A stretch of DNA of 64,000 nt. Origin: Nitrospira sp. (GTDB lineage Bacteria > Nitrospirota > Nitrospiria > Nitrospirales > Nitrospiraceae). The stretch is from contig JACOEL010000003.1 of the NCBI GenBank assembly GCA_024998625.1, forward strand, positions 186,001-250,000. The letters run 5' to 3'. The notes beneath the pieces were generated by a model. It did no database searches. It was not told the DNA's origin and saw only the letters and a list, made by a program, of their open reading frames with translations. Shown here one piece after another: positions 2 through 12,133 of the stretch; position 1 is the stretch's first letter; every line of letters starts with the position of its first letter. The position numbers and the translations under genes are program-made.

Positions 2-1120
2 CTGTTCGACATGCCCTTGCGCAGTTACGTCGGCTTTTTTGTGAATCAAATGGAGCAGGAAGGGCAGACCTTCAATAACCTCCAGGACTTCTTCGGTACG
101 CGCGGCACGTTGGCACAGAACAGCCGCGGGACGATCCGGAACATCGGCGGACGGTTCCGGGAAGAATTGGAATTTATCCCGAAGTGGACCCTGGCCGCAG
201 GCCTCGGGTTCGAGCAATCGCAGTTGAGCGTGCAGACGATCAACTACACGGCCGGGGCGGTCAGCGGCAGGGCCGGAGCGGAACGCAGCTTCAGCAACTG
301 GGCGCCGGAACTGTCGGTCAGCTGGAAGCCGGCCGACGGGTATCGCCATTGGGTGCGCGCCTCCACCGGGTATGCCATTCCGGGGTTCGGCAATCTGTTG
401 ACCAATCCTTTTACGGGTCTCGCAGGAACTAATTTCGATTTGAAGCCGCAGAAAAACCTCAACGTCGAACTCGGCACCGAGTCCCGGTTGCACAAGACCT
501 TGACGGTGCAGTTGGTCGGCTTCGTCACGTTCGTCAAAGACGAAATCATCACTCAGGTGGTCTCCAATACCGGCGGCCAGGCTGCGATCAACGCGGACTC
601 GTCGCAATATCGAGGCATCGAGTTCTTCTACGACTGGCGGCCCTTGGACGGGTTGCGGCTCTCCGGCGCCTACACGCACATCGATGCGCGGTACATCAAT
701 TTCAGCGACCGGTTCCTCGCCGGCGGGATTCCGACGGCCTTCGTGCGGGACGGTAAAGTGGTGCCGAACGTGCCGACCGACACCCTCAATTTCAAGGAGT
801 CCTACGATCATGCCGCCAGCGGGTGGGGCGGCTGGGTGGAAGTCAACTATATGAACAGTTACTTCTTGAACAACAATAATACGGTGGGCATTCCGTCTTT
901 CGTGATCGCCAACCTGAATATCCATAAGAATTTCGAGTTCCATAACAACAAGTGGATCCGGTTCGCGAAGTTCTTCGCTGAGATCGATAACATCGCCGAC
1001 AAGAAATATGCGGCTTCCGGCAATGTTGTGGCCGATAGCACGGCCGATGCGAACAAGACGCTGTTCTTTGCCGGTTATGGCCGGTCGTTTTATGCCGGGG
1101 TGACATTGGGATTGTTCTAA
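2..1120 (+). CDS. TonB-dependent receptor, C-terminal part (5' end outside window)
   Basis: The reading frame is open to the left edge of the window, so only the C-terminal part (about 373 residues) of an outer-membrane receptor is present. It shows the alternating aromatic/polar pattern of a 22-strand beta-barrel, Asn-rich strand turns, and a C-terminus ending in Phe (YAGVTLGLF) as required for BAM-dependent insertion. The segment FAEIDNIADKKYAASGNVV is the usual penultimate-strand region of siderophore or metal receptors. Plug domain and TonB box lie upstream and cannot be inspected, so the substrate is unknown. A second receptor of the same kind starts at 2930. Confidence 0.85.
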   Translation: MFDMPLRSYVGFFVNQMEQEGQTFNNLQDFFGTRGTLAQNSRGTIRNIGGRFREELEFIPKWTLAAGLGFEQSQLSVQTINYTAGAVSGRAGAERSFSNWAPELSVSWKPADGYRHWVRASTGYAIPGFGNLLTNPFTGLAGTNFDLKPQKNLNVELGTESRLHKTLTVQLVGFVTFVKDEIITQVVSNTGGQAAINADSSQYRGIEFFYDWRPLDGLRLSGAYTHIDARYINFSDRFLAGGIPTAFVRDGKVVPNVPTDTLNFKESYDHAASGWGGWVEVNYMNSYFLNNNNTVGIPSFVIANLNIHKNFEFHNNKWIRFAKFFAEIDNIADKKYAASGNVVADSTADANKTLFFAGYGRSFYAGVTLGLF

Positions 1121-1376: not shown

Positions 1377-1450
1377 GGTGTGCGTTGCTGAGACTGCGAT
1401 CGGCCGGTGAAAAGGCCGATGCGATCTGTTGTGAGCGGGTAAGAGGGCCT

Positions 1451-2860
1451 ATGAGTCGCATCCTGTTGTGTCTGGTTATTTTGCTGGCCGGCTGTGCGGG
1501 CGGGACGGGTCTGTCCTCATCGTCGAAGGCCTCGCACCCGACCGGGCCGTCCGGGAGCGATTCCTACGCCTTCATCAACGGCCGATGGTTCGACGGCCGG
1601 GGGTTTCAGCCCGCCACCTGGTATTCAGTGCAGGGACGTTTGACGCGCACCCCGCCGCAGGGACGAGTCGAGACGGTGGACTTGTCCGGCCTGTTCGTCG
1701 TGCCGCCGTTCGGGGAGGCGCACAATCACAACGTGGAAGGCCCGTGGAATGTTCAGGCGGTAGCCGCGCGGTATCTCAAGGACGGCGTGTTCTATGTGAA
1801 GAATCCCAACAACGTCCGGGACTTTGCATTGCAAATTCGAAGCGCCGTCAATCAGCCGACGAGCATCGATGCGACCTTCGCCCATGCCGGACTGACGGGG
1901 CGGGGCGGCCATCCCGTGGCGTTGTATGAGGACGTCTTGCGGACGAGCCGATACGAGCCGGTGGTCGGGACCATCGAGCGGGGGTGGTTTGAGAACCGGT
2001 CCTATATGGTGCTCGACACCGACGCCGATCTGGAGACGAAATGGCCGTTGATCACGAGTGGTCAACCTGACTTCCTAAAAGTCTATCTCGTGCATTCCGA
2101 AGACGAGGACGCGCCCGGAACGTCCGGACAGTCCCCGCAACGAAGCGGTCTCCATCCGCGACTCGTGCCACAGATTGTCGCGAAGGCCCATGCCGCAGGG
2201 TTGCCGGTGACCGCCCATGTCGAAACGGCGGCGGATTTTCGCCAGGCGGTTCGCGCCGGCGTCGATGAGATCGCGCATGTGCCGGGATGGCTGGTGACCA
2301 GTGCCGCCGATGGGGAGTCCGCCCGACTCACGGAAGCGGATGCGCGGTTGGCCCTCGAACGTCACGTGCGAGTCGTGACCACCGCTGTGGCGGGAAGCGC
2401 CATGCCCTCTGTTCCGGGACATCATCCGCACGGGCATCACGAAGGGCATGCAACCGGGATGTCCGATCATCACCCGGCGGCACCGGATGAATCACGGGTA
2501 CAGATTCTCAAGGACAACATTGCGTTGCTCCATCGCGTGGGAGTGCGCGTCGTGGTCGGCAGCGACCATGCCGAGACATCGCTGGCGGAAGTGATGCAGC
2601 TGCACAGGTTCCATCTCTTCGACAACCTGACGCTGCTCAAGATGTGGTGTGAGGACACGCCGGCTTCGATTTTTCCCGACCGGCGCATTGCAAAGTTTGC
2701 CGAGGAGTACGAGGCCAGTTTTCTCGCCCTGGCGGGGAATCCCATTGAGGATTTCGATCAGGTACGGGCCATACGCCGCAGATTCAAACAGGGAGTGTCG
2801 CTGGACGGCGCCCCCACGCGAGACGCTGCCTGGTCAGCAGCGGACCAGAAGAGTCGGTAA
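1451..2860 (+). CDS. Amidohydrolase-family lipoprotein
   Basis: A 469-residue metal-dependent hydrolase carried on a lipoprotein signal (MSRILLCLVILLAGC, lipobox LAGC), so it is probably anchored in the periplasm. Family features are the metal-binding HxH (GEAHNHNVEG, near residue 95), a Lys in FLKVYLV, the His in VTAHVETA, a later IAHVPG and the Asp of VVVGSDHAE. This is the imidazolonepropionase/prolidase-like branch of the amidohydrolases. A His-rich insert (HHPHGHHEGHATGMSDHH, about residues 325-342) is not part of the fold and could bind metal. The in-frame TTG at 1385 would give a longer product, but the ATG at 1451 begins exactly at the lipoprotein signal. Substrate unknown. Confidence 0.8.
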   Translation: MSRILLCLVILLAGCAGGTGLSSSSKASHPTGPSGSDSYAFINGRWFDGRGFQPATWYSVQGRLTRTPPQGRVETVDLSGLFVVPPFGEAHNHNVEGPWNVQAVAARYLKDGVFYVKNPNNVRDFALQIRSAVNQPTSIDATFAHAGLTGRGGHPVALYEDVLRTSRYEPVVGTIERGWFENRSYMVLDTDADLETKWPLITSGQPDFLKVYLVHSEDEDAPGTSGQSPQRSGLHPRLVPQIVAKAHAAGLPVTAHVETAADFRQAVRAGVDEIAHVPGWLVTSAADGESARLTEADARLALERHVRVVTTAVAGSAMPSVPGHHPHGHHEGHATGMSDHHPAAPDESRVQILKDNIALLHRVGVRVVVGSDHAETSLAEVMQLHRFHLFDNLTLLKMWCEDTPASIFPDRRIAKFAEEYEASFLALAGNPIEDFDQVRAIRRRFKQGVSLDGAPTRDAAWSAADQKSR

Positions 2861-2929: not shown

Positions 2930-5185
2930 ATGGAGCGGAATGGTTGGAGTCAATGCGCGGTGGGCTGTCTGGCAGCCTTGGTATTGATGGGGGCGCCGCC
3001 TGGTGAGCTGTGGGCGGCTGATGAGCCGCAGGAGCAGGAGGCGCCGGTGGTGGTGGTCGAGGCGGTCGAGGTGAGGGGAAAACGCATTGAAAACGTCGAG
3101 GATGTGAAGCAGGAACTTGCCCGCCGGCCGGGCAGCAATATCCTGATCGAGGAAAAGCAGGTCACTGAGTCACGCGCGATCAACCTGCAAGACGTGCTGC
3201 AGTTCGCACCGGGCATCCGGTTCCAATCAAGGTTCGGTGCCGATGAAGGGCAGTTCCAAATCCGCGGCACTTCGTTGCGGAATAACTTCCACCATCGAGG
3301 GATCAACATTCTCATCAACGGAATCTTCTTCGGCGATGCCGACGGGTTTTCGGATTTCGAATCGATCGACCTCCTGGCCTACGAGCGGATCGAGGTCTAT
3401 AAGGGCGCGAACGCCCTGCGGTACGGCGCGAACAGCATCGGCGGCGCGATCAATTTCGTGCCGCGCACCGGGTATAGCGCTTCGACGCTACAGATGCGGA
3501 TGCTCGGCGGCAGCTTCGGGATGGTCAGTGGGCAGGTATCCAGCGGCAAAGTGCTAAAGCCCTTCCAGGTGGGCAACATGACCGCCACGATGGATTATTA
3601 CATCAGCGTGTCCGGCAATCGCCAGGATGGATTTCAGGATAACAGCCAGCAGGCTCGTGAACGCATCAATGCCAACATCGGTCTGCAACTCGGCAATCAC
3701 CAGGAGATCCGGGCCTATTTCCTCCAAGCCAATGTCGCCGAGCGGATTCCCGGTTCGCTCACCAATCAACAGCTGTTCTTCAACCGGCAGCAAACCGGAG
3801 GGCAGAGTCCTGCCGGGGCACCGCCGTTCTTCGCGTGCGTGTCGAGCAATCAGGCCTGTAACTGGGGCCGGTACTACACGCTGCAGCGGATCGGCATTGC
3901 CTATCACAATGAGTTCGCGCCCAATCAGTTCTTCGAGATCATTCCCTACTTCTCGAATCAATTTGTCGACCATCCGATTTTTCAGACGATCCGGCAGGAA
4001 AACAACAACGTCGGCGGTGAATTCCGCTATGTGAATTCAAACAGCCTGTTCGGCAAGAACAACTCGTTCGTTGCCGGATTCCAGCCGCGGTACGGGAATC
4101 AGCGACAGCAACGGTTCGTCAATATCAACGGCAGCATCGGGGCCATGACGCAGAACTACACGGCGAAGACCACGTACTTCGGCGTCTATGCCGAAGACGC
4201 GTTCGATGCGACCAAGGACTTCACGATCGTCATCGGCGGCCGATGGGACTACACCGGGCGGCAGGCGACCGTGGACAACTTCGGGCCGGCGGGGAATCCG
4301 TTTAACCCCAATACTCCCTCCGCGCCGACCAGCACGCAGAAGCCACTGCAACATTTCGGCGCGATCAGTCCGAAAATCGGCTTCGTCTATCGCACCACGC
4401 CGACGTCTCAGTTGTATTTCAACGCCAGCCGGGCCTACGAAGCGCCGCTCAACGTCGAGTTGTTGTCGTCGCTCAATGCGAACGGCTCCGCCAATACGGG
4501 TTTCCTGAACCTGGACGCACAACGCGCCTGGCAGTTGGAGTTGGGGCATCGGGGAACCTCGGCGGACAAGCGTTACAACTGGGATGTGACGGTGTACAAC
4601 CTGGAAATGCAGAAAGAAATTCTGGCGTCGAACATCAATAACCAGGGCACCTTCCAAAACGCCAACGGCACGCGCCACACCGGCGTCGAGGCCGGCGGCG
4701 GCGTGGTCCTGAAGAAAGGCCTCTTCGCGCAGGGCGGAGCGGGCAAGGAAGATAGCCTGCAGACGCGCGTGGCCTATACCTGGTCGCGGTTCAAGTTTAC
4801 CGACGATGTGCGCGGCGGCGGAATCGGCGGCCCCAATGTGCTGATCGCCAAAGACGGCAATACGGTGGCCGGCGCGCCGGAGCACAGCTTGAACGTGGAG
4901 GCTCGCTACGACCATCCGGCGGGCTGGTGGATCGCGCCGAATGTCGAGTGGTCGCTGTCGGGGTTCTATACGGACTACAACAACACGATCAAGAATCCGT
5001 CCTATGCGCTCATCAACGTGCGTTCCGGCTGGAACATCGATGAGCACTGGACGCTGTTTGCCGAAGGTCGCAACCTCACGAACAAAACATACGCCGGAGC
5101 CGTCGTGGTCAATGACTCGCTGAATCGTTTTGCCAATCCCGGATTCGGGATCAGCGCATTCGGAGGAGTCGAGTATAAGTTTTAA
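2930..5185 (+). CDS. TonB-dependent outer-membrane receptor
   Basis: A complete 751-residue receptor. Residues 1-30 are a Sec signal peptide ending LWAADE. The plug domain follows (about 55-175) with the typical run NLQDVLQFAPGIRFQ and ERIEVYKGANALRYGANS, then a barrel ending in EYKF. AAAGGAG lies just upstream of the ATG. The plug resembles Fe(III)-dicitrate/siderophore receptors, but ligand specificity cannot be read. It follows the lipoprotein amidohydrolase by 69 bp and precedes the S9-like protein, which suggests import plus periplasmic processing of one class of substrate. A Cys-containing extracellular loop (ACVSSNQACNWG) is visible. Confidence 0.92.
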   Translation: MERNGWSQCAVGCLAALVLMGAPPGELWAADEPQEQEAPVVVVEAVEVRGKRIENVEDVKQELARRPGSNILIEEKQVTESRAINLQDVLQFAPGIRFQSRFGADEGQFQIRGTSLRNNFHHRGINILINGIFFGDADGFSDFESIDLLAYERIEVYKGANALRYGANSIGGAINFVPRTGYSASTLQMRMLGGSFGMVSGQVSSGKVLKPFQVGNMTATMDYYISVSGNRQDGFQDNSQQARERINANIGLQLGNHQEIRAYFLQANVAERIPGSLTNQQLFFNRQQTGGQSPAGAPPFFACVSSNQACNWGRYYTLQRIGIAYHNEFAPNQFFEIIPYFSNQFVDHPIFQTIRQENNNVGGEFRYVNSNSLFGKNNSFVAGFQPRYGNQRQQRFVNINGSIGAMTQNYTAKTTYFGVYAEDAFDATKDFTIVIGGRWDYTGRQATVDNFGPAGNPFNPNTPSAPTSTQKPLQHFGAISPKIGFVYRTTPTSQLYFNASRAYEAPLNVELLSSLNANGSANTGFLNLDAQRAWQLELGHRGTSADKRYNWDVTVYNLEMQKEILASNINNQGTFQNANGTRHTGVEAGGGVVLKKGLFAQGGAGKEDSLQTRVAYTWSRFKFTDDVRGGGIGGPNVLIAKDGNTVAGAPEHSLNVEARYDHPAGWWIAPNVEWSLSGFYTDYNNTIKNPSYALINVRSGWNIDEHWTLFAEGRNLTNKTYAGAVVVNDSLNRFANPGFGISAFGGVEYKF

Positions 5186-5205
5186 CTCGGCGTGCACGTC
5201 GTCGG

Positions 5206-5235
5206 TGCGGGGCTCATCGCCAGGTGAGCCCCGCA
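5206..5235 (+). terminator. Hairpin after the TonB receptor
   Basis: Perfect 11-bp arms at 5206-5216 and 5225-5235 (TGCGGGGCTCA / TGAGCCCCGCA) with an 8-nt loop, 20 bp after the receptor stop codon. No T-run follows, so termination may be weak or factor-dependent. Confidence 0.6.
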
Positions 5236-5392
5236 TCGTGACGGCGGCTGATCCGGTCATGCGGCGACCGGCCCTCCGGCGTCTTCCGCTTGCGTGAAAA
5301 ACGGGATGGACGGCCGTCAGGCGAACATGTGATAACAGAATCCGTCGGGTATTCCCCGGCTGGACATGTCCTGGTAACTGTAGGGAGTGACC

Positions 5393-7366
5393 GTGCCGGC
5401 CATCTACGGACTTGTCACTGTTTTGCTACTTGTCTGGACCTTGGTCCCAGTCTACGCCGAGTCCGGCCCTGCTCCGCCGCCTACGGCGGTCTTCGCCTCA
5501 CTGCCTCGCATCGAATCGATTCAACTGTCTCCTTCCGGCCGGCACCTTGCCGTGCTCCGCAACCATGACGGGCAGACGTTTCTCGATATCCAAACCGTCA
5601 CGGGACAAGACGTCCACCGTGTCGTCTCGACGGACAATCGTGACTACATCATCACCTGGTTTCGCTGGGTCAATGACGAACGGCTGCTCGTGAGTATCCG
5701 GTTTGCGGCGACACGTGAATCGATCGATTCGGTCGAGACTCGATTATTGGCGGTGAATCGCGACGGCTCGGAGCAAATACCCAATTTGTTCAAGCAAAGT
5801 TCCTTTCCGTCGCTTTTTGGAAAGAAGCACTTTCCTCAATTTCAAGACCAGCTGGTCGGCACGATTCCCGGCGATCCCAGACATGTCCTGCTCGCCCTCG
5901 ATCTGGAACATCCCAATGCTCCGGATGTCTACAAGGTGGACGTGTATACCGGTGATCGGCAGTTGGTCCAGGCGAATCCCAGCGCGCAGCCGGACCCCCG
6001 AGTGATTCTGCGCTGGATTGCCGATCGGGCGGGGAGGGTGCGGGCCGGGGTCGGCCAATTTCAGACCGCCGTGCATGCGATCTTCAGGCAGCCGGAGTCT
6101 AGCCTTTGGCGCGAGCTGGCCGATTATGACCTGGCCAAAGAAACCGGGCTGGTGCCCTTGGCCTTCGATGCCGATCCCGCCTGGTTGTATGTGCGGGATC
6201 AACATCGGGGCAAGGCGGCGATTTTTAAGCTCAACGTAATGGACCTGACAGCGGATCGTATCCTCGTGGTCGCCGATCCGAAGTTCGATCTGAACGGTGA
6301 GCTGGTCTATGCGCCGGGCCGCAAGAAAGTCGTCGGTGTTCGGTACAGCGCGGCGGATGAGCGGGTGCTCTTCTGGGACTTCGACGCGCAACGCTTGCAG
6401 GCGCGGATCGATCGGGCGATTCCTGGAACAGTTAATGTCATCCACAGCAGCAGCGACGATGGTCGACTACATATCGTCAAGTCGAGCGGCGCGGCGCATC
6501 CCCCGCGCTGGTCGATCTTCGACGAACGCGATGGACGAATGGTGCTGCTCGGCAAGTCTTATCCTGATCTTGAGACGGCCGCACTGGCTGCTCCCACGAC
6601 GACCTACGTGACGGCGCGGGACGGCAAGGAACTGCAAGTCTTCCTGACCGTTCCCAAGGATCGGGACCCGCGCCAACTTCCGATGATTGTGTTTCCCCAT
6701 GGAGGCCCTGCAGCGCGAATGCCCGGTGCATTCAACTATTGGACCCAGTGGTTCGTCAGTCGCGGGTGGGCGGTGCTGGAGCCGCGTTTTCGCGGGACCG
6801 CGGGATACGGTGACGAATGGCTCCGCGCCGGTTTCCAGCGATGGGGGCTGGAGATGCAGGATGATGTGACCGACGCCGTGCAATGGGCGATTCGCTCCGG
6901 ACTCGCAAGCGCACACCGGATCTGTATCGTCGGATCAGGATACGGAGGCTATGCGGCCTTGATGGGCGCGGTGAAGACGCCGGATGTGTATCGCTGCGCC
7001 GTCAGTCTGGGCGGGGTGACCGATTTGCCGCAGGTCGTGTCCGACAGCCGTTGGTACCTGAATCAGAAACCGCTTGCCGAAATGCGTATCGGCTCCTGGT
7101 GGAACGACCGTGAGCGGCTGCGCGATACCTCGCCGGTCTTTCATGCGAAGGAGATTCGTATACCGTTGCTCCTGATGCACGGCGCCATGGATCGGGCGGT
7201 GCCGGTGTCGCATGGTCGAGACATGGCCGAGGCACTCAAGGCGGCAAACGTCACGACCTACCGGTATGTGGAACTTCCCTTCGCCGATCAGGCGTTGAGT
7301 CGCGAGCAGGACAGGATTCACGTCTTCAAAGAACTCGAACAGTTCCTCACTACTTACCTTGATTGA
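5393..7366 (+). CDS. S9 prolyl-oligopeptidase-like protein lacking catalytic Ser and His
   Basis: A 657-residue exported protein: signal peptide (about 1-23), beta-propeller region (about 35-400) and a C-terminal alpha/beta-hydrolase domain of the S9 (dipeptidyl aminopeptidase/acylaminoacyl peptidase) family, seen from FPHGGPAARM, FRGTAGYGDEW and HGAMDRAVP. The nucleophile elbow should be GxSxGG but reads GSGYGG: Gly about residue 516 occupies the Ser position. The Asp (about 600) is kept, while the catalytic His position (normally in GHGF) reads ADQAL, with Gln about 633. The protein is therefore probably not a serine peptidase and may bind peptides. I chose GTG 5393 because GTG 5387 overlaps the Shine-Dalgarno AGGGAG. 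Confidence 0.8.
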   Translation: MPAIYGLVTVLLLVWTLVPVYAESGPAPPPTAVFASLPRIESIQLSPSGRHLAVLRNHDGQTFLDIQTVTGQDVHRVVSTDNRDYIITWFRWVNDERLLVSIRFAATRESIDSVETRLLAVNRDGSEQIPNLFKQSSFPSLFGKKHFPQFQDQLVGTIPGDPRHVLLALDLEHPNAPDVYKVDVYTGDRQLVQANPSAQPDPRVILRWIADRAGRVRAGVGQFQTAVHAIFRQPESSLWRELADYDLAKETGLVPLAFDADPAWLYVRDQHRGKAAIFKLNVMDLTADRILVVADPKFDLNGELVYAPGRKKVVGVRYSAADERVLFWDFDAQRLQARIDRAIPGTVNVIHSSSDDGRLHIVKSSGAAHPPRWSIFDERDGRMVLLGKSYPDLETAALAAPTTTYVTARDGKELQVFLTVPKDRDPRQLPMIVFPHGGPAARMPGAFNYWTQWFVSRGWAVLEPRFRGTAGYGDEWLRAGFQRWGLEMQDDVTDAVQWAIRSGLASAHRICIVGSGYGGYAALMGAVKTPDVYRCAVSLGGVTDLPQVVSDSRWYLNQKPLAEMRIGSWWNDRERLRDTSPVFHAKEIRIPLLLMHGAMDRAVPVSHGRDMAEALKAANVTTYRYVELPFADQALSREQDRIHVFKELEQFLTTYLD

Positions 7367-9982: not shown

Positions 9983-10510
9983 ATGCCGGTGAATGCTGCG
10001 GTGGCGTCACCGCGTCGTGCGGAGATGGCCCAGGGCGCTCAACAGAGGGCGGGGTTGAGCGTGGCGGTCGTGCGATTGCTGATGGTCACCCTCGATATCA
10101 GCGAGGGCTGGTCCCCGGCGCCTCCCGCGGCGACGTTATTGATTCCGTTCGGGTATCGGGACTGGCCGAGTGTGACCTCTACGGTGGAATCGCCCGGCGG
10201 GCGGAGGCGGCTCCGGTTCTACGTGTGCCCCAAGGCTCTGCTCACGCCGGACTATGAATCGTTTCCCGTGGGGACCACGTTCGTCGTGGAGTCCGAGCCC
10301 TATCCGGAAAGCCCCGGATCTTCTCGGGCCAGGCCGTCCGTGTTTGCGATGGAGAAGTGCGCCGGTCTCACGATGGACGGCGCGGGGACCAGGCAGTACG
10401 AATCATGGATGTATGCGAGTTGGGATTCGCCCGCTCAGCAGGCCATGGCGGATCGTGGCCGGTGCGGCGTCTGCCGGCTGCCCTGGCTGACGCCCGCTGA
10501 CATGCGATGA
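9983..10510 (+). CDS. Cytochrome P460-family-like protein without the CXXCH His
   Basis: A 175-residue protein. From about residue 56 it follows the cytochrome P460 pattern: PFGYRDWPSVTST, RRLRFYVC, FPVGTTFVVESEPY, then a late W-containing strand and a C-terminal Cys pair. In P460 proteins the C-terminal CXXCH binds a heme cross-linked to Lys and oxidises hydroxylamine or NO. Here the motif is CGVCR: both Cys are present and the axial His is Arg. Heme attachment is therefore doubtful. The N-terminus is not a clean signal peptide, although a hydrophobic stretch (about 25-36) could act as one from an internal start. The ATG has GGGAGG upstream. Family assignment is moderate. Confidence 0.5.
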   Translation: MPVNAAVASPRRAEMAQGAQQRAGLSVAVVRLLMVTLDISEGWSPAPPAATLLIPFGYRDWPSVTSTVESPGGRRRLRFYVCPKALLTPDYESFPVGTTFVVESEPYPESPGSSRARPSVFAMEKCAGLTMDGAGTRQYESWMYASWDSPAQQAMADRGRCGVCRLPWLTPADMR

Positions 10511-11292: not shown

Positions 11293-11637
11293 ATGCGAAA
11301 ACTCTTCGTGGCCGTGGTTCAGATCCTCATGCTGGCCGGCGGATCGGGAGTGTGGGCCGCCGACGATTCATTGGAGCGGTTGTTACGGGCGCAGGCGTTC
11401 AATCGGGAATTCGAGGGATTCGATTCGTACTATGTGAGGATCGAGGCGGATCGGCCCCAGCCTGACGGGTCGCATGAAGTGCTGGCGGTGGCCAGCGGGA
11501 AATTTTCGGACAATACCAAGCGTATGAGAGTGCTGTTTCTTATCGTCGATGGTCGCATTGTCGGCGGCCAGGTGTTGGAAGGCACCGGTCTTCCTCCGTG
11601 CCTGGCACAGGAGCATCGTCCGTCCTCATCTCTTTAA
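11293..11637 (+). CDS. Small secreted protein of unknown function
   Basis: A 114-residue protein with a clear Sec signal peptide (to VWAADD, about 23) and a short mature region of about 90 residues predicted as mixed alpha/beta (SYYVRIEADRPQPDGS, VLFLIVDGRIVGGQVLEGT). I do not recognise a family. AGGAGG precedes the ATG. The next gene (cupredoxin-like, 11654) starts 16 bp after the stop, so the two form an operon under the promoter at 11241-11269. Confidence 0.6.
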   Translation: MRKLFVAVVQILMLAGGSGVWAADDSLERLLRAQAFNREFEGFDSYYVRIEADRPQPDGSHEVLAVASGKFSDNTKRMRVLFLIVDGRIVGGQVLEGTGLPPCLAQEHRPSSSL

Positions 11638-11653
11638 CCTGACAGGAGGTTCT

Positions 11654-12133
11654 ATGTTGAGCAGGATTGCGGTCCTTTTCATGGGCGTGTTGGGCGTGTT
11701 GGCGAGTGGAACGTCTGCGTTGGCGCTACAGGCCGGCGGGGTCGAAGTCGGTGACCTCGAGACCGGTTCCGTCGTCGGTCAGCCGTTTAAGGAATTGGTC
11801 GTGGATGCGGAATTGTATGCCGTTGAAATCGGCAGCATGAAGGCGTGGTATCCGCCGACCACGGTCATCGATTTCAAAGTCCGGCCGGGTCGTCCGCTGT
11901 TGATCAAGGTCACGAATACCACCGCGACGGAGCGTGGCTTTCAAATGATCGATACCGTCAATGCGGCGTCGCCGTTTGTCTTAAAGGCCGAGGTCCGGTT
12001 GAAGCCCGGCGAGACGAAGTATATCGGCGTGCCGACCAGCGATTTGTTCAATCAAACCCAGGGCAATACGCTTGAGTATCGCGACCAGCTCAATCCTATG
12101 CAGCCCGGCGGCAAACTGGTGATGATCAAGTAA
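11654..12133 (+). CDS. Secreted beta-sandwich protein, cupredoxin-like but without metal ligands
   Basis: A 159-residue protein with a signal peptide (to about 26) and a mature domain rich in beta strands whose order (FKVRPGRPLLIKVTNTTATE, then LKPGETKYIGVPT near the end) resembles the cupredoxin fold of copper proteins. It has no His and no Cys at all, so a blue-copper or CuA site is impossible. It could be a structural or binding relative of cupredoxins; the fold call is by pattern only. I took the ATG at 11654 (AGGAGG upstream) rather than an earlier in-frame start that overlaps the previous gene. It ends before a strong terminator. Confidence 0.5.
   Translation: MLSRIAVLFMGVLGVLASGTSALALQAGGVEVGDLETGSVVGQPFKELVVDAELYAVEIGSMKAWYPPTTVIDFKVRPGRPLLIKVTNTTATERGFQMIDTVNAASPFVLKAEVRLKPGETKYIGVPTSDLFNQTQGNTLEYRDQLNPMQPGGKLVMIK

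Follow-up and report, generated by a model that had tools for sequence, protein, structure and literature searches.

In this study, we analyzed a 64,000-nucleotide stretch of DNA from Nitrospira sp. (GCA_024998625.1, contig JACOEL010000003.1, positions 186,001-250,000 of the forward strand; hereafter the window, whose coordinates are used below) and found that it encodes a protein of the S9 fold family that, judging from its sequence, is an S9 homologue by descent yet no S9 peptidase. Classical serine-hydrolase catalysis has very probably been lost in this protein, which presumably binds instead of cutting. On the whole, we lean slightly toward the explanation that it would be exported and non-catalytic, acting as an accessory binding or scaffold protein of TonB-dependent uptake.

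Fold and catalytic residues of the window protein

The gene and its features, all on the + strand, are as follows:

5393..7366, +, ORF of the S9C pseudo-peptidase (GTG start, 657 aa plus stop; the mechanically called ORF starts at GTG 5387)
5393..5458, +, signal-peptide-like N-terminus MPAIYGLVTVLLLVWTLVPVYA without a lipobox Cys (sequence; helix at residues 2-16 in the AlphaFold model)
5483..6586, +, beta-propeller domain, about residues 31-398 (beta strands in the AlphaFold model)
6593..7363, +, alpha/beta-hydrolase domain, about residues 401-657 (PF00326 at 449-658 in the numbering from GTG 5387; AlphaFold model)
6698..6709, +, HGGP oxyanion-side motif, residues 436-439, kept (present in most of the inactivated clade and in nearly all intact relatives)
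6932..6949, +, nucleophile elbow G-S-G-Y-G-G, with Gly at the nucleophile codon 6938-6940 (sequence, orthologue comparison)
7190..7192, +, triad Asp600, kept (codon GAT, within HGAMDR)
7289..7291, +, triad His position, here Gln633 and Q/E/H/Y among orthologues (codon CAG, within LPFADQALSREQD)

We took GTG 5393 as the sensible start, as an earlier sequence-only reading of this DNA had done, because it has a better-spaced AGGG than GTG 5387 and because in most orthologues the frame is first open at the codon that follows 5387; residue numbers are counted from it. Export of the predicted protein is supported by its signal-peptide-like, cleavable-looking N-terminus.

A Pfam search gave PF00326 a score of 123.5 bits (curated cut-off 22.6), and the nearest solved structures by sequence were S9C acylaminoacyl peptidases, with 4wjl scoring far lower. 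Structure prediction and comparison with acylaminoacyl peptidase, the check proposed in the sequence-only reading, revealed an intact two-domain S9C fold: the AlphaFold model (64 family sequences; mean pLDDT 88.9, pTM 0.87) matched 5l8s with a Foldseek E-value of 1.3e-32 and the acylaminoacyl peptidases 3o4h/1ve6/5l8s with Z of about 32 across residues 27-657. By the PF00326 score and the propeller/hydrolase fold, the protein is a member of the prolyl oligopeptidase superfamily S9 by descent.

Both substitutions described in that reading were found again at the codon level, GGA (Gly516, within IVGSGYGGYA) at the nucleophile and CAG at the His position, and its statement that the Asp and the fold motifs are kept also held, with Asp600 invariant in all tree rows. 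The reading had itself named a nucleophile Ser one residue earlier as a case that would contradict it. This candidate was rejected, as 17 of 28 orthologues have Ser at the position before 516 and the other 11 have Ala. Sequencing error was likewise rejected as the source of the substitutions, since independent genomes agree. Of the triad of an active S9 serine peptidase, only the Asp is thus present, and the serine-hydrolase mechanism appears to be unavailable because Ser and His are missing. Inactivation is well supported by these sequence comparisons and, given the fold, the triad loss across orthologues and the constraint described below, the protein is by sequence a pseudo-peptidase (non-peptidase S9 homologue).

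Clade-wide loss and persisting constraint

A genus search detected the pseudo-peptidase in 27 of 29 genus genomes and in two sister genera. The inactivated clade includes N. defluvii FP929003, and the gene was missing from G009 and from G018, which is 84% complete; G009 is the one complete genus genome that does not carry it. The sequence-only reading had left it to be checked whether orthologues keep the same substitutions. Among the 28 orthologues (genomes with the nucleophile column covered), this stood for the nucleophile, which was never Ser (Gly 26, Asp 1 in L023, Asn 1 in L027), but not for the His position, which varied (Gln 13, Glu 8, His 6, Tyr 1). The substitution goes beyond chance, because the nucleophile was Ser in all 70 relatives examined outside the clade and in none of the 28 inside. 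One orthologue (L023:1498-3477, genome G004) combines an Asp nucleophile with His and Asp, the arrangement found in alpha/beta-hydrolases with an Asp nucleophile.

In a 96-row tree, the inactivated clade formed one side of a branch with an SH-aLRT of 100 and was therefore monophyletic; the loss of Ser mapped as one change and the His column as four. The simplest reading is that Ser would have gone first and once, with His decaying later, in steps and in several lineages. The nucleophile codons, AGY in the intact relatives listed and GGN, GAC or AAC in the inactivated clade, fit this order. Sequence comparison places the Ser loss before the ancestor that the Nitrospira clade shares with its nearest sister genera.

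The sequences indicate that the gene is under persisting purifying selection. The median pairwise dN/dS was 0.155 in the inactivated clade versus 0.171 in the intact Nitrospira paralogue (Nei-Gojobori method; values are rough, as median dS was near 1), and 45 of the 55 positions conserved at 95% or more in intact relatives persist in the clade. The strongest losses among the 55 were Ser516, Asn465, His633 and Ser469; Asn465 (99% in intact relatives) has mostly become Arg and Ser469 mostly Thr. The hydrolase:propeller divergence ratio was 0.99 (95% CI 0.84-1.16) in the inactivated clade versus 0.69 (0.58-0.84) in the intact paralogue, implying that constraint was relaxed on the hydrolase domain relative to the propeller. 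Residues fixed specifically in the inactivated clade showed no concentration in the hydrolase domain by count. The sequence-only reading had tentatively proposed a peptide-binding protein, which this one may be. A relaxed hydrolase and a constrained propeller fit binding of a partner or scaffold at least as well as binding of a peptide in the old cleft.

Association with TonB-dependent receptors

The genes upstream of the pseudo-peptidase in the window are:

11..1120, +, TBDR1, a second TonB receptor present here with its C-terminal part, the full gene beginning before the window
1385..2860, +, AMH, amidohydrolase-like protein and old partner of TBDR2 (matches to PF01979 and to NCBIfam Xaa-Pro dipeptidase, weak and under the cut-off in both cases)
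2930..5185, +, TBDR2, TonB-dependent receptor directly upstream of the pseudo-peptidase (Pfam Plug and barrel; synteny)
5206..5235, +, GC-rich hairpin TGCGGGGCTCA/TGAGCCCCGCA without a T run, in the gap that separates TBDR2 from the pseudo-peptidase (sequence)

This order (TBDR1, AMH, TBDR2, pseudo-peptidase) is the usual one. A same-strand TonB-dependent receptor lay directly upstream in all 27 genomes with the neighbor on the contig (TBDR2 in 23, TBDR1 in four), although these neighborhoods share inherited synteny and are not 27 independent cases. Together with the signal-peptide-like N-terminus, the S9C fold and the clade-wide triad loss, this bears out the description of an exported pseudoprotease beside a TonB receptor given in the sequence-only reading. 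TBDR2 was 85-95% identical across the genus and generally more conserved than the neighboring AMH and pseudo-peptidase. We claim no operon for TBDR2 and the pseudo-peptidase, because the gap between them is about 200 nt and often holds a hairpin, as seen in many orthologues.

The linkage to receptors as such is conserved, but obligate co-occurrence with one particular receptor was not observed. An obligatory bond with TBDR2 was rejected: G009 keeps AMH-TBDR2 elsewhere in its genome without the pseudo-peptidase, and G012, G017 and G021 show the reverse. A bond with TBDR1 was also rejected, as TBDR1 is missing in G001 and G007, which keep the pseudo-peptidase, and is truncated in G009, which does not have it. 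The TBDR1 match in G009 (G009:C1:1328750-1329949, L172) covers only the first 391 of 784 residues. The AMH-TBDR2 pair occurs across the order, in several genera, without the pseudo-peptidase and is the older unit.

Upstream of TBDR1, just before the window (G000:C25:179531-183809; L167:1531-2757 and 4532-5809), two BNR-repeat proteins carrying the Cys-rich motifs CPCCRP / CVCCRT and ACPHR flank a TonB gene, and a thioredoxin-like gene and TBDR1 come after; relatives also turn up close to the TBDR2 cluster elsewhere in the order (L161, L166). Downstream, the window encodes a TPR protein, a protein that weakly matches cytochrome P460, a DsbA-like protein and, beyond these, a P-type ATPase in which YHS-like and heavy-metal-type motifs were seen by eye. 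These downstream genes hint at metal handling, which is no evidence of the ligand. The P460 match belongs to a small protein (9983-10510; 21.5 bits in Pfam, below cut-off) whose gene several Nitrospira genomes retain next to the cluster. A conserved exported protein at 11549-12133, cupredoxin-like by eye, had no Pfam or NCBIfam match and is found near TBDR2 even in sister genera.

Possible function and alternative explanations

A binding or scaffold role in uptake is suggested by the conserved fold, by export and by the linkage to receptors. The exported, catalytically dead S9C prolyl-oligopeptidase-type protein would work through binding, without cleavage, and would serve TonB-dependent uptake as a periplasmic or outer-membrane accessory. 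Its propeller and former active-site pocket would bind either another protein as partner or a peptidic ligand that the adjacent receptors handle, for example a peptide or a peptide-type metal carrier. The propeller is more likely to be the working surface and, because constraint has shifted to it, a protein partner there is weakly favored relative to a cleft-bound small ligand. The uptake role, like the ligand and the partner, is read from gene position only, and we consider its chances about even.

The same gene position could also reflect merely inherited synteny around a conserved binding role unrelated to the neighboring receptors. The greater age of TBDR2-AMH and its occurrence without the pseudo-peptidase are in keeping with this explanation, as are the 200-nt gap and hairpin and the lack of a window-like TonB-dependent receptor near intact relatives in Herbaspirillum and other bacteria checked. 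However, the pseudo-peptidase stays in a receptor cluster where AMH-TBDR2 is missing (G012, G017, G021) and even where gene order is altered (G042), and four of the seven intact Nitrospira paralogues also lie near a different TonB-dependent receptor; the cluster of one of them, L032, contains FecI/FecR-like, TonB-like and ExbB/D-like genes by eye. An unrelated role is unlikely in our view, though it deserves serious weight.

That the protein is still an enzyme, acting through another residue or a non-covalent route, is improbable. The retained Asp600 and HGGP motif and the Asp-His-Asp layout of L023 would agree with a changed mechanism, but in the window protein Gly and Gln occupy the Ser and His positions, orthologues have Ser or Ala just before the nucleophile position and Q, E, H or Y in the His column, and Asn465 and Ser469 have mostly been replaced as well; in the hydrolase domain of the inactivated clade, no Ser, Cys or His that became newly fixed suggests itself as a substitute. 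Regulation of an intact S9 paralogue, as the dead subunit of a mixed oligomer, would be plausible insofar as S9C enzymes are often oligomeric and about seven genus genomes also carry a 45-48% identical intact-type paralogue. However, most of the genus does not, and in the window genome the only strong PF00326 match was the pseudo-peptidase itself (127 bits, next 31), so this very improbable role was rejected there as far as the PF00326 search reaches. Finally, a decaying gene heading for loss is hardly credible: both catalytic residues are gone and the gene is absent from G009 and the incomplete G018, but it persists in the other 27 of 29 genomes, all orthologues have open frames without internal stops, and Gly is kept at the nucleophile through the synonymous codons GGA/GGC/GGG. 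A pseudogene was rejected on these open frames and the dN/dS of about 0.15.

Comparison with known systems

If the binding protein favored here serves TonB-dependent uptake, it bears on metal or peptide acquisition by Nitrospira, a dominant nitrifier. Annotated by family only, it would be called a peptidase and credited with a non-existent proteolytic step. Many non-peptidase homologues of S9 are catalogued in MEROPS, and S9 pseudo-peptidases are best known from mammals. In the literature, which we covered in part, we found nothing direct on bacterial S9 pseudo-enzymes or Nitrospira TonB/S9 links, nor a report of the inactivated clade. Its readable order of loss (Ser once, His later and repeatedly) and relaxed catalytic domain make it a testable case of a protease turning into a binding protein.

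The intact Nitrospira paralogue (L036 in N. defluvii; L032) resembles the pseudo-peptidase in its two domains, export and occasional proximity to a TonB receptor, but it keeps GGSYGG, Asp and GDHxLSR and its nearby receptor is another one; L032 is lipoprotein-like, unlike the pseudo-peptidase. Another intact-type copy, L037 (G006), has an internal TAG and appears broken. The S9C acylaminoacyl peptidases (5l8s, 3o4h/1ve6) share the fold over residues 27-657, HGGP and Asp, but are proven enzymes with a Ser-Asp-His triad. AtxE2-type lasso peptide isopeptidases are S9-type peptidases often encoded near TonB receptors; they are active enzymes, and the match of the window protein to the Atxe2 model NF033523 (NCBIfam) was 41.3 bits, far below the 400-bit cut-off.

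The closest parallel in kind is provided by DPP10 and DPP6, inactive S9B proteins with GKGYGG and with Asp at the nucleophile, respectively, that act as Kv4 channel subunits and in which restoring Ser did not restore activity (PMC4350108; PMC4873792). They (4wjl) have a propeller and a hydrolase domain, and the same two replacements of Ser, Gly or Asp, recur in Nitrospira (GSGYGG, GSDYGG). Both are accessory to a membrane transport protein (PMC4350108), a role that gene position suggests for the Nitrospira protein. On the other hand, they are eukaryotic, with a type II membrane anchor and Kv4 partners, and DPP10 keeps the His that the Nitrospira clade has mostly lost; the window protein is bacterial, has a cleavable-looking signal peptide and best matches S9C acylaminoacyl peptidases, which places it outside the DPP6/DPP10 group. 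By analogy, a bacterial S9 pseudo-peptidase might have become dedicated to a TonB-dependent transporter as its non-catalytic subunit, a tentative and rather doubtful parallel to DPP6/DPP10 with ion channels. The best reading of the Gly and Asp replacements in Nitrospira is that they arose independently of, and convergently with, those of DPP10 and DPP6.
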